Below, one piece after another: positions 7,713 to 11,420 of a stretch of DNA of 64,000 bases. Under the pieces are notes generated by a model that saw only the letters and a list, made by a program, of their open reading frames with translations, did not search any database and was not told where the DNA came from. The stretch covers positions 33,608 to 97,607 of the forward strand of contig CACJRK010000002.1 in assembly GCA_902595795.1 (NCBI GenBank), read 5' to 3'. Source of the stretch: an uncultured Pelagibacteraceae bacterium (GTDB lineage Bacteria; Pseudomonadota; Alphaproteobacteria; Pelagibacterales; Pelagibacteraceae). Position numbers and translations under genes: made by a program. Each line of letters opens with the position of its first letter. Position 1 is the stretch's first letter.

Positions 7713-8765
7713 ATGAAAAATATTAAAAAAATACCACTTATATTCTCAATATTATCAATTATAACATTCTTTACACCAGCAAACGCTGAAATAAAAGTAG
7801 TAGCTTCTATTAAACCAATTCATTCATTAGCCAGTTATTTGATGGACGGTATTGCTAAGCCTGATCTCATAGTTGATGGATATGCATCTCCGCACGGATT
7901 TGCAATGAAACCTTCTCATGCAAAAATGCTCCAAAATGCAGATCTAATATTTTGGGTAGGTGAAGATTTAGAAAATTTTTTAGAAAAACCACTAAGCTCA
8001 ATTGCAAAAAAAGCAGAAAAAATTGAACTAATGGAAACTAAAGGATTACAGGTATTAAAATTTAGAGAAAGAAATATTTTTGACGAACATGATCATGACG
8101 ATCACGGACATGACGATCATGGTAAAAAAGAAGATGATCATGATGACCATGGACATGATGACCACGGTAAAAAGGAAGATGATCACGACCATGACGATCA
8201 TGGTAAAAAAGAAGATGATCATGATGATCACGGACATGACGATCATGATGGACATGCGCATGGTGAATTTGATCCACACATTTGGTTGGACCCAATTAAT
8301 GCAAAAGCTATTTTAAATGAAATGGCAGAACATTTAATTGAAAATGATCCAAAAAATGAAGCTAAATACAAAAGTAATTTAGCTAAAGCTTTAAAAGAAA
8401 TCGATAAACTTACAATTGATGTAATGACAGATTTAAGCAGCAGTGTTTCTTCAATTGTATTCCATGATGCTTATCAGTATTTTGAAGAAAGATTTAATGT
8501 TAAAGTATTAGGTGCATTTACTGTTAATACAGATGTGATGCCTGGAGCTGAACAACTTGCTGAAATTAGAGAAATTATCGAGCATGACAAAGTTGCATGT
8601 GTATTCTCTGAACCTCAATTTAACCCAGATATTATCAAAGCTGTAGCTAAAGATATGAAGATTAAAACTGGTGTTTTGGATCCATTAGGTGCAACTTTAG
8701 ATCCGGGTAAAGACTTGTATTTCAAATTAATTAGAAATATGTCCAATTCTTTCAAAGGTTGTTAA
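7713..8765 (+). CDS. znuA: zinc ABC transporter substrate-binding protein with His/Asp-rich loop
   Basis: Signal peptide, ASIKPIHSLASYLM, His-rich loop, FDPHIWLDPINAK, FHDAYQYFEERF. Confidence 0.94.
   Translation: MKNIKKIPLIFSILSIITFFTPANAEIKVVASIKPIHSLASYLMDGIAKPDLIVDGYASPHGFAMKPSHAKMLQNADLIFWVGEDLENFLEKPLSSIAKKAEKIELMETKGLQVLKFRERNIFDEHDHDDHGHDDHGKKEDDHDDHGHDDHGKKEDDHDHDDHGKKEDDHDDHGHDDHDGHAHGEFDPHIWLDPINAKAILNEMAEHLIENDPKNEAKYKSNLAKALKEIDKLTIDVMTDLSSSVSSIVFHDAYQYFEERFNVKVLGAFTVNTDVMPGAEQLAEIREIIEHDKVACVFSEPQFNPDIIKAVAKDMKIKTGVLDPLGATLDPGKDLYFKLIRNMSNSFKGC
8082..8262 (+). repeat. in-frame tandem repeat encoding (D)DHDDHGHDDHGKKE-type His/Asp-rich units in ZnuA
   Basis: Repeated 'gatgatcatgatgaccatggacatgatgaccacggtaaaaaagaa'-like units; about three imperfect copies plus partial units. 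Confidence 0.85.
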
Positions 8766-8836: not shown

Positions 8837-9058
8837 ATGTTCATAAAAAAGTATCTTAAATGGATAAGTACATTTCTCGTTCTAGTTGGTATTCTTTTAA
8901 CAAATCTAAACGTATATCCATTGAATATCTACTTTCACGGATTAGGAGTTGTAGGATGGACTATCGCTGGATTTATCAGCAAAGATAAAGCGATCCTAAC
9001 TAATTTTGGATTGCAAATACCATTATTTGTAATTGGTATATATAAAATAATATTTTAA
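8837..9058 (+). CDS. small two/three-TM hypothetical membrane protein
   Basis: 73 aa hydrophobic ORF with upstream SD-like AGAAAGGA; no recognised domain from sequence alone. Confidence 0.65.
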   Translation: MFIKKYLKWISTFLVLVGILLTNLNVYPLNIYFHGLGVVGWTIAGFISKDKAILTNFGLQIPLFVIGIYKIIF

Positions 9059-9077
9059 TTTTTTTATATAGACTTTG

Positions 9078-9109
9078 AACTAAATTAGTTTAGTTGTAGA
9101 TGAATCTAC
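9078..9109 (+). ncRNA. two abutting stem-loops in the 3'/5' UTR between the 73-aa ORF and the PiT-like gene
   Basis: AACTAAA-ttag-TTTAGTT (9078-9095) immediately followed by GTAGA-tgaa-TCTAC (9096-9109). Confidence 0.4.
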
Positions 9110-9224
9110 TCTCTGATTCTTTAATAAATAAATTTATACGTAGAAAAATTCTTTGACCTACATTAAACACTCCTCAAGTCATAAAACGATTGAACCGAAA
9201 ACAATAATATTTAGGAGATAAAAA

Positions 9225-10190
9225 ATGGAAATGACTTTAATTTACACGGTTATAGGGTTTGCCCTTGCCGGTTATAGTGTAATCGCTAACGACTCAATCC
9301 AAACACTTGGTACCTTTATTGCTTCAAAAAAGAAGTGGTTTAAATGGTATGTACTTGCTGGATCAGCTTCAGCTGTTATGATTTTAGCACTTGGATGGGG
9401 TTGGTATTCTTATGATGGAGATATTTCTTATGGAAGATTAAATAGAATACCTTATCAAGAAATTCAATGGTATCATGCAGTAGCTCCTGCAATACTATTA
9501 TTATTAACAAGAATTGGAATACCAGTATCAACAACCTTTTTAGTTCTTTCGGCATTTGCTTCAACCGTTGTGCTTGAAAAAATGCTATTGAAAAGTGTGG
9601 TTGGTTATGGATTAGCAGCAATGGTTGCTTACATAGCCTGGATAGCTGTATCTAAATTTATTAATGAAAAATTTGATGAAGTAGATGAAAAATGGATATC
9701 ATTCTGGAGAAATGCTGTTTGGGTTTCGTCAGGTTGGTTATGGTGGGTTTGGTTATCTCACGATGTAGCTAATATAGCTGTATATCTACCTAGACAATTA
9801 GATTTAACATTGCTTTTAATTGTAATGGGTTACTTTACAGCATTATTATTTTATATTTTCTACATTCAAGGTGGACCAATTCAAAAAGTTGTTCTTGAAA
9901 AAACAGGAACAAGATATGCAAGATCAGCTACAATTATTAATGTGATTTATGCTGGTGTTTTATTCTACTTTAAAGAGCTTAATGATTTGCCAATGTCAAC
10001 AACATGGGTGTTCGTTGGGTTATTGTGTGGAAGAGAGCTTGCAATATCTACAATGAATAAGGACTATAAATTTAAGTATGTCTTCCCATTAATTGGTAAA
10101 GACTTTCTTAAAATGATCTTTGGATTAAGTGTTTCAGTAGGTATCGTTTTAGCGATCCACTACATAATTATTCCAAATAATTGGTTTTAA
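9225..10190 (+). CDS. multi-TM protein with divergent PiT (inorganic phosphate transporter)-like inverted-repeat motifs
   Basis: Two halves each with a PiT-like signature pair: ANDSIQTLGTFIAS ... IPVSTTFLVLSAFAS and SHDVANIAVYLPRQL ... LPMSTTWVFVGLLCGRE. Confidence 0.6.
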   Translation: MEMTLIYTVIGFALAGYSVIANDSIQTLGTFIASKKKWFKWYVLAGSASAVMILALGWGWYSYDGDISYGRLNRIPYQEIQWYHAVAPAILLLLTRIGIPVSTTFLVLSAFASTVVLEKMLLKSVVGYGLAAMVAYIAWIAVSKFINEKFDEVDEKWISFWRNAVWVSSGWLWWVWLSHDVANIAVYLPRQLDLTLLLIVMGYFTALLFYIFYIQGGPIQKVVLEKTGTRYARSATIINVIYAGVLFYFKELNDLPMSTTWVFVGLLCGRELAISTMNKDYKFKYVFPLIGKDFLKMIFGLSVSVGIVLAIHYIIIPNNWF

Positions 10191-10200
10191 ATAAATCTTT

Positions 10201-10231
10201 ATGGTCGTGTTATATTATTTAACACGGCCAT
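10201..10231. terminator. shared hairpin between convergent PiT-like gene and manC
   Basis: ATGGTCGTGTTA (10201-10212) ... TAACACGGCCAT (10220-10231), 12-bp stem with one G-U/mismatch; contains the manC stop codon. Confidence 0.6.
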
Positions 10232-11420
10232 ATACATCTTGATATCTAACAATATCACTTTCCTTCAAAATTGAGCCAATTTGAGCTTCGACAATTTTTA
10301 CAGGTTTTTTTCCTGAGTTTTGAACTCTATGGATTGCCTCTAACGGAATGAATATATGTTCACCTGGTTTTTTAATTATAATATCTTTGTTAAGAGTTAT
10401 TTTAGCATTACCTTGGGTGACTAACCAATGTTCCGCTCGGTGATGGTGTTTTTGTAAACTTAAAATACCTTTTGGTTTTACGTATAGTTCTTTTATTAAA
10501 AACTCTTTTCCTTCAAATAAATTAGTGTATCTGCCCCATGGACGGTAATACACGTTTTTTTTCTTAATATATTTGTTTTTATTTTTATCATACATTTTCA
10601 GAATTTCTTTCCAACTACCAAGATCTGACCAAGGTATATCTAGTTTGATAGCGTTAATTTGTTTGGTTTTTTCTAGAATTGCATAATCAAAAGATTTAGC
10701 AGTAGCTTTTATAAATGAAGCTTTATTTAAATAATATGTATTAGCCTTATATTTTGCCTTATTAACTGCATTTAAACAATTTCTGTAAGTTTTAGGCTGA
10801 TATTTTTTAAAGTTATTAATAATGGAATCTTTTCTAAGAAAAAACATTCCTGAATTCCAATAACCTTTTTTCTTTATAATTTGTTTAGCTTTAGCTTCTT
10901 TTGGTTTTTCAATAAATCTAGTTACTTTATTAATATTTCCTTTAATTTTTTTGGTTAAAAAATAACCATATTCGCTAGATGGTGAATTTGGTTTTATTCC
11001 AAATATAAATATATTTTGATCACTTAAGTTCTTTTTGTTTTTATTAATTGCCCTATTAAAAATACTCATCTTTTCAATTAAATGGTCTGCTGTAAAAAAC
11101 ATTAAAGGTTGATTGTCAGGAATATCTTTAATTAAAGCTGTACTTAATATAGCTGGTGCAGTATTTTTTTTTGCTGGTTCAAGAACAATTTTATATTTAC
11201 TTATTTTGAGTTTTTTAAGATGTTGTTTAACTTGTTTAAGATATTTTTTATTTGTACTTATAACTGGAGCATCAAATATTGATGCTTTTGTTCTATCAAG
11301 TGTTTTACCAAGCAAAGTCCAATTACCAAAATCAATGAACTGTTTAGCTTGATGATTTTTAGAATTTGGCCAAAGTCGAGTTCCAGCACCTCCACATAAA
11401 ATAACTGGACGAATTTTCAT
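10215..11420 (-). CDS. manC: mannose-1-phosphate guanylyltransferase / mannose-6-phosphate isomerase-type protein
   Basis: PVILCGGAGTRLWPNS, EYGYF, FIEKP, C-terminal cupin RPWGRYTNL...LSLQKHHHRAEHWLVTQG. Confidence 0.9.
   Translation of the reverse strand: MKIRPVILCGGAGTRLWPNSKNHQAKQFIDFGNWTLLGKTLDRTKASIFDAPVISTNKKYLKQVKQHLKKLKISKYKIVLEPAKKNTAPAILSTALIKDIPDNQPLMFFTADHLIEKMSIFNRAINKNKKNLSDQNIFIFGIKPNSPSSEYGYFLTKKIKGNINKVTRFIEKPKEAKAKQIIKKKGYWNSGMFFLRKDSIINNFKKYQPKTYRNCLNAVNKAKYKANTYYLNKASFIKATAKSFDYAILEKTKQINAIKLDIPWSDLGSWKEILKMYDKNKNKYIKKKNVYYRPWGRYTNLFEGKEFLIKELYVKPKGILSLQKHHHRAEHWLVTQGNAKITLNKDIIIKKPGEHIFIPLEAIHRVQNSGKKPVKIVEAQIGSILKESDIVRYQDVYGRVK

Follow-up and report, generated by a model that had tools for sequence, protein, structure and literature searches.

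SAR11 bacteria rank with the most abundant cells of the ocean, much of which is limited by phosphate. The locus described here raises the question of whether a solitary gene for a PiT-like membrane protein, here called T, could supply SAR11 cells with phosphate. The gene lies in a stretch of 64,000 nucleotides (the window) from an uncultured Pelagibacteraceae bacterium; going by the relatives of T, the nearest of which (94 to 99% identical) come from uncultured Pelagibacteraceae, the source of the genome is SAR11. A first-pass annotation, made from the letters alone, had proposed a remote relative of the phosphate transporter (PiT) family with two-fold organization and altered signature residues, and had left the substrate as phosphate or something else.

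Kinship with PiT transporters

The open reading frame on the forward strand is intact and runs from ATG to stop over exactly the 321 amino acids first assigned to it, and the opposite strand is riddled with stops (Table 1). The motifs ANDSIQ, PVSTTF, SHDVAN and PMSTTW were found at PiT-like positions, where the first-pass annotation had placed them. The two GANDxxN signatures of PiT are not present in T, which has IANDSIQ and LSHDVAN instead. The hairpins, which in PiT read PxS[ST]T followed by His or Gln, retain PVST and PMSTT, and the next residue is Phe and Trp, respectively, in all 28 diverse homologues compared (58 to 89% identical to T). In the same set, N22, D23, Q26, P100 to T103, F105, H179, D180, N183 and P256 to W261 are invariant. 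The altered residues HDVAN and STTF/STTW are thereby real features of the family, invariant or nearly so across diverse relatives, and the second Asn of NDxxN in repeat 1 is likewise changed (NDSIQ), a substitution absent from the earlier account. A codon comparison gave a dN/dS of ~0.05 to 0.1 for cellular and viral copies alike, indicative of strong purifying selection on both. Because the altered motifs are invariant in 28 homologues and dN/dS is this low, they are maintained and not noise.

Table 1. Features of the T locus, in window coordinates
Feature	Position	Strand	Description	Basis
T	9225..10190	+	321-aa PiT-related membrane transporter, putative phosphate importer	ORF, conservation, fold match, profile alignment, presence/absence
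ANDSIQTLGTFIAS (A21 to S34)	9285..9326	+	Repeat-1 signature, residues 21-34; counterpart of PiT GANDxxN	hhalign placement, conservation
PVSTTF (P100 to F105)	9522..9539	+	Repeat-1 hairpin signature, residues 100-105; counterpart of PiT PVSTTH/Q	hhalign placement, conservation
SHDVAN (S178 to N183)	9756..9773	+	Repeat-2 signature, residues 178-183; first Asn of NDxxN replaced by His	hhalign placement, conservation
PMSTTW (P256 to W261)	9990..10007	+	Repeat-2 hairpin signature, residues 256-261; counterpart of PiT P[VI]S[ST]TH/Q	hhalign placement, conservation
DUF6552	8837..9058	+	Small membrane protein, 73 aa (PF20189, E 2.3e-10); one of two constant flanks of the phosphate locus	
manC-like	10215..11420	-	Mannose-1-phosphate guanylyltransferase (TIGR01479, E 9e-111, just under cutoff); other constant flank	
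Interval between flanks	9059..10214		T here; phoR-pstS-pstC-pstA-pstB-phoU-phoB in Pst-containing relatives	Gene order comparison, gene names

By itself, T matched PHO4 (PF01384) with an E value of 0.45 (9.9 bits). Its relatives reached E 2.6e-7 and 30.4 bits at best, and none of the family members scanned attained the curated cutoff of 33.7 bits. An hhalign comparison of 18 T sequences with 20 alphaproteobacterial PiTs gave an E value of 5.6e-7 at 92% probability, collinear over residues 1 to 289, versus an E value of 0.57 for a reversed control that was run against the smaller of two PiT alignments. The alignment paired ANDSIQ with ANDxxN, PVSTT with PVSTT, SHDVAN with GANxxAN, and PMSTT with PVSxT. 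HMMER profiles of T against a small PiT set gave no match. The T profile did find a bona fide alphaproteobacterial PiT with a DUF47 neighbour (locus L199 of genome G862) at E 1.8e-5, which is itself a clear member of PHO4 (E 1.3e-61) and matches the solved PiT structure 6L85 by sequence (E 8.9e-25). An AlphaFold model of T, built from 28 sequences (mean pLDDT 82.8, pTM 0.80), had 6L85 as its sole confident Foldseek match in the PDB (E 3e-5, probability 1.00, TM 0.66 by query); PDB sequence searches with T and with T profiles gave no match, and 6L85 was reached by structure comparison only. We looked both for a lack of PF01384 homology and for an assignment to another family, and neither was the outcome. 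The proposal of a remote PiT relative is well supported by these comparisons, which indicate that T is homologous to PiT and shares its superfamily and, as modeled, its fold.

Five predicted helices in one half of T have similar counterparts in the other, but a direct hhalign comparison of the two halves did not rise above its control (E 0.037 versus 0.026), and an inverted repeat is what homology to PiT would predict for T. Swapped halves (a circular permutation) were suggested by Pfam, in which the N-terminal half matched the C-terminal part of PHO4 and vice versa. This arrangement was rejected: because the profile-profile alignment is collinear, the crossed matches reflect the internal repeat of PHO4.

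T thus resembles the PiT/PHO4 family (PF01384, TC 2.A.20, with 6L85 a sodium-dependent phosphate transporter) in predicted fold, in the order of its two motif pairs, and in collinear profiles. It differs in being ~80 residues shorter than 6L85, in scoring below the cutoff, in IANDSIQ and LSHDVAN for GANDxxN and STTF/STTW for STTH/STTQ, and in standing without a DUF47/PhoU partner. The first-pass annotation was right on this last point. The nearest recognized PiT relatives are alphaproteobacterial proteins of ~350 amino acids paired with DUF47, such as that of L199 (GANNIAN and STTQ/SSSQ motifs), which has DUF6552 and arsC neighbours as T does, but which is a clear PHO4 member and has the DUF47 partner. 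Because T lies below the PHO4 cutoff and has altered signature residues, we treat it as a PiT-related family of its own. It is unlikely that T is an ordinary PitA (PF01384) altered by drift in a genome that is low in GC and evolves fast. Its homology and fold are indeed those of PiT, and a published survey names the Pst replacement of offshore SAR11 "pitA" (PMC12636525), but not one scanned member reaches the cutoff, and drift fails to explain residues that are invariant, held by purifying selection, and common to an alphaproteobacterium of ~50% GC and to phages.

T and Pst across Pelagibacterales

The presence of T and of PstC (TIGR02138, counted at E < 1e-20) was scored in one set of 297 Pelagibacterales genomes, a draw from the order. 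The two were almost mutually exclusive, with PstC missing from 54 of the 57 genomes that have T and present in 210 of the 240 that lack it; 3 genomes had both and 30 had neither. Fisher's test, which ignores relatedness, gave a p value of 1.2e-33 for all 297 genomes and 1.0e-17 among those at least 90% complete, and the exclusion ran in the same direction inside each of five genera from two families (g1, g2, g3, g219, and g220). One of the three genomes with both, G657, has T only as a 27-residue fragment. Among the 30 genomes with neither, 10 are at least 90% complete, and incompleteness is a partial explanation of this group; some SAR11 may do without T and Pst, or the assemblies may miss a flexible island. 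No alternative importer was found in these genomes by searches for PF01384 in all 30 and for PF02690 and PhoU in four. The Na/Pi cotransporter NptA (PF02690) was not a Pfam match for T, and none was found in 19 Pelagibacterales genomes. In the window's own genome neither PstC (best E 4.6e-6) nor PhoU, PF02690, or PF01384 was found, at a completeness of only 84% (G000). Four other genomes of the window's genus, estimated at 97% complete (G477, G479, G488, and G498), gave no T, PstC, PhoU, PF02690, or PF01384; loss of the island in assembly is possible for these.

A one-sentence statement of 2025 has Pst-less offshore SAR11 relying on "pitA" (PMC12636525). That gene is reported, like T, from offshore Pelagibacteraceae where pst is missing, and it is very likely T. 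The main text of that survey gives the annotation only and is silent on motifs, structure, exchange at the locus, and viral copies. The complementarity of T and Pst was reached here independently; to that main text the present analysis adds the divergence from PiT, the use of one slot by both systems, genomes that hold both, the phoB-T scar, and the copies in viruses.

The gene order in the window is znuA, DUF6552, and T, followed on the opposite strand by manC and an ilvD-like gene. In Pst-containing relatives (G459, G012, and G460), the slot adjoining manC holds the seven-gene cassette given in Table 1, its genes named by NCBIfam models. DUF6552 comes directly after the cassette in G459 and G012, and an aquaporin and arsC intervene in G460. 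Across 86 T loci, DUF6552 was present in 78 and manC was in reach in 67. Two genomes (G463 and G708) hold both systems, with T adjacent to and divergent from the phoR of an intact cassette; from such a dual state, loss of either system would yield the two common layouts. In G657, the final 22 codons of T, SLSVSVGIVLAIHYIIIPNNWF, begin directly after the phoB stop codon (L235 8305-8385), likely the scar of a T-to-pst replacement by recombination.

Two minor features of this neighbourhood deserve mention. DUF6552 adjoins three kinds of importer (T, Pst, and PiT with DUF47) despite differences in the other flanks (window 8837-9058, L199 484-708, and L242 6569-6793), and it may be functionally linked to phosphate importers. 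The ZnuA protein contains, at about 8085-8310 of the window, a long run of DDHGHDDHGKKEDDHD repeats that is probably a metal-binding loop and whose repeat number may vary among strains.

Phosphate as the probable substrate

Arsenate enters cells via phosphate transporters. Upstream of T on the same strand, an aquaporin (MIP) was usual (74 of 86 loci), joined in 52 of the 86 by a homologue of the LMWPc-type arsenate reductase (arsC) that scores under its equivalog cutoff. Given that route of arsenate entry, the arsC/aquaporin association points to phosphate as the substrate of T. Aquaporin and arsC also adjoin pst in G460, G037, and G050, and L199 has arsC and DUF6552 next to its PiT-DUF47 pair; the window lacks aquaporin and arsC, and DUF6552 directly precedes T. 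A published account treats the arsC of SAR11, together with the aquaporin gene next to it, as a module for arsenate resistance whose frequency is higher where phosphate is low (PMC6426599).

The strongest support for phosphate is genomic, namely the exclusion between T and PstC and their common site. Because of these two patterns, the dual genomes, the phoB-T scar, and the arsC/aquaporin neighbours, along with the homology and fold of T, the purifying selection on it, and the failure to find another known phosphate importer in the window's genome, import of phosphate by T in place of Pst is the best explanation and, in our judgment, a highly probable one. The substrate, earlier left as phosphate or another compound, now leans clearly to phosphate on presence/absence, locus comparison, and neighbours; the direction of transport would be inward. 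T would be a stand-alone secondary transporter of PiT fold that takes up inorganic phosphate by an ion gradient, with arsenate as an unwanted look-alike, and it would stand in as the phosphate uptake system of SAR11 lineages from which PstSCAB, PhoU, and PhoBR have been lost. The coupling ion would be Na+ or H+, and the transport cycle would use two alternating-access hairpins as in PiT. Expression may well be free of Pho control, since the phoBR genes are gone from the T locus. The PstSCAB-PhoU-PhoBR cassette shares with T the chromosomal slot and presumably the job in SAR11, but it is ATP-driven, dependent on a binding protein, and Pho-regulated, with seven genes versus one.

The specificity of T could have shifted, because residues at positions that possibly touch the substrate differ from those of PiT (the second Asn to Gln, Asn to His, and His to Phe and Trp). 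CysP, a sulfate permease, is a member of the PiT family. Import of another oxyanion, such as sulfate, would accord with these altered motifs and with the weak contact of 2 of 18 T members with the CysP model NF053884 (best E 0.0067). We regard it as very improbable: T itself has no match to that model, a sulfate importer would be of little use to SAR11, in which assimilatory sulfate reduction is missing (PMC5069961), and sulfate leaves the exclusion with Pst, the common site, and the arsenate reductase neighbour unexplained. There is an equally slim chance that T is unrelated to phosphate and merely shares an island hot spot with pst, the Pst-less cells living on phosphonates, organic phosphorus, or an importer yet to be named. 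The pst cassette is known to sit in a flexible genomic island (PMC7318151), and T and PstC are both missing in some genomes. However, mutual exclusion in five genera is unexpected for unlinked island cargo, the fold of T is that of phosphate transporters, the PF01384 and PF02690 searches found no canonical alternative importer, and arsenate genes accompany the phosphate importer at T, Pst, and PiT loci.

If T, as a phosphate importer, is the sole one in much of SAR11, then counts of pst genes misread the phosphorus strategy of these cells, and one unstudied protein sets their competition for phosphate. The exchange at one locus of a seven-gene regulated system for a one-gene importer that is putatively without Pho control would also let the streamlining of genomes be studied as a clean natural experiment.

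Viral copies of T

A profile scan found relatives of T encoded by at least 578 IMG/VR stretches, which are uncultured viral contigs. None of 50,697 deposited phage records contained T, and searches of INPHARED, PHROGs, and BFVD, at the sensitivities applied, and of plasmids likewise did not find it. In contig L083, T lies between the major head protein and tail-tube genes, after the portal and head protease, and the capsid protein is closest (74%) to that of Pelagibacter phage Mosig EXVC030M. Elsewhere T adjoins a T4-type DNA polymerase (L119), is near a gp32-like single-stranded-DNA-binding protein (L087) or a DNA end protector (L110), or shares its contig with baseplate genes (L125). Contigs in IMG/VR are viral by prediction, and T is absent from deposited phage records, as would be the case if host DNA had been missorted as viral and there were no phage family; but with T amid phage structural and replication genes in these five contigs, and with viral copies forming several deep clades of their own, we give that explanation almost no credence.

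In a tree of 55 T sequences, the cellular copies do not form a single cluster. Those of SAR11 and of two other alphaproteobacteria cluster with viral L129, a placement that is unsure given the long L129 branch, and those of a second Pelagibacterales family join viral L110 and L125. The fewest changes of the label "viral" on the tree is four, and the starred branches force at least two. From these label changes it follows that T has been exchanged between phages and hosts. We regard as moderately probable a broader reading in which phosphate importers of PiT fold, forming a family of their own that deposited phage records do not show, pass between Pelagibacterales and uncultured phages (many of them T4-like), and in which SAR11 has repeatedly exchanged this single-gene allele and the whole Pst-Pho cassette for one another in the same slot.

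Other viruses are known to carry phosphate genes, with pstS and phoH in cyanophages and PHO4 in algal viruses. Viral T would be a further case of virus-borne phosphorus acquisition but is a distinct family, here seen among viruses only in uncultured contigs. In the open-licence literature we found neither a description of viral T copies nor any mention of PiT-type importers in ocean bacteriophages. By the same logic as in the host, phage copies would raise the phosphate supply during infection, and if uncultured phages commonly carry T, phosphate uptake in infection has an actor unseen in phage isolates.

Some T contigs, the longest of them about 110 kb (L162, L163, L164, and L181), do not look like pelagiphages. 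Judged by eye, they have FolE- and QueD-like open reading frames and Bacteroidetes-like leader peptides, and by PHROGs a T4-type polymerase, suggesting hosts other than pelagibacteria. In the T-bearing phage contig L087, positions 145-1419 encode, also by eye, an apparent class III adenylate cyclase.
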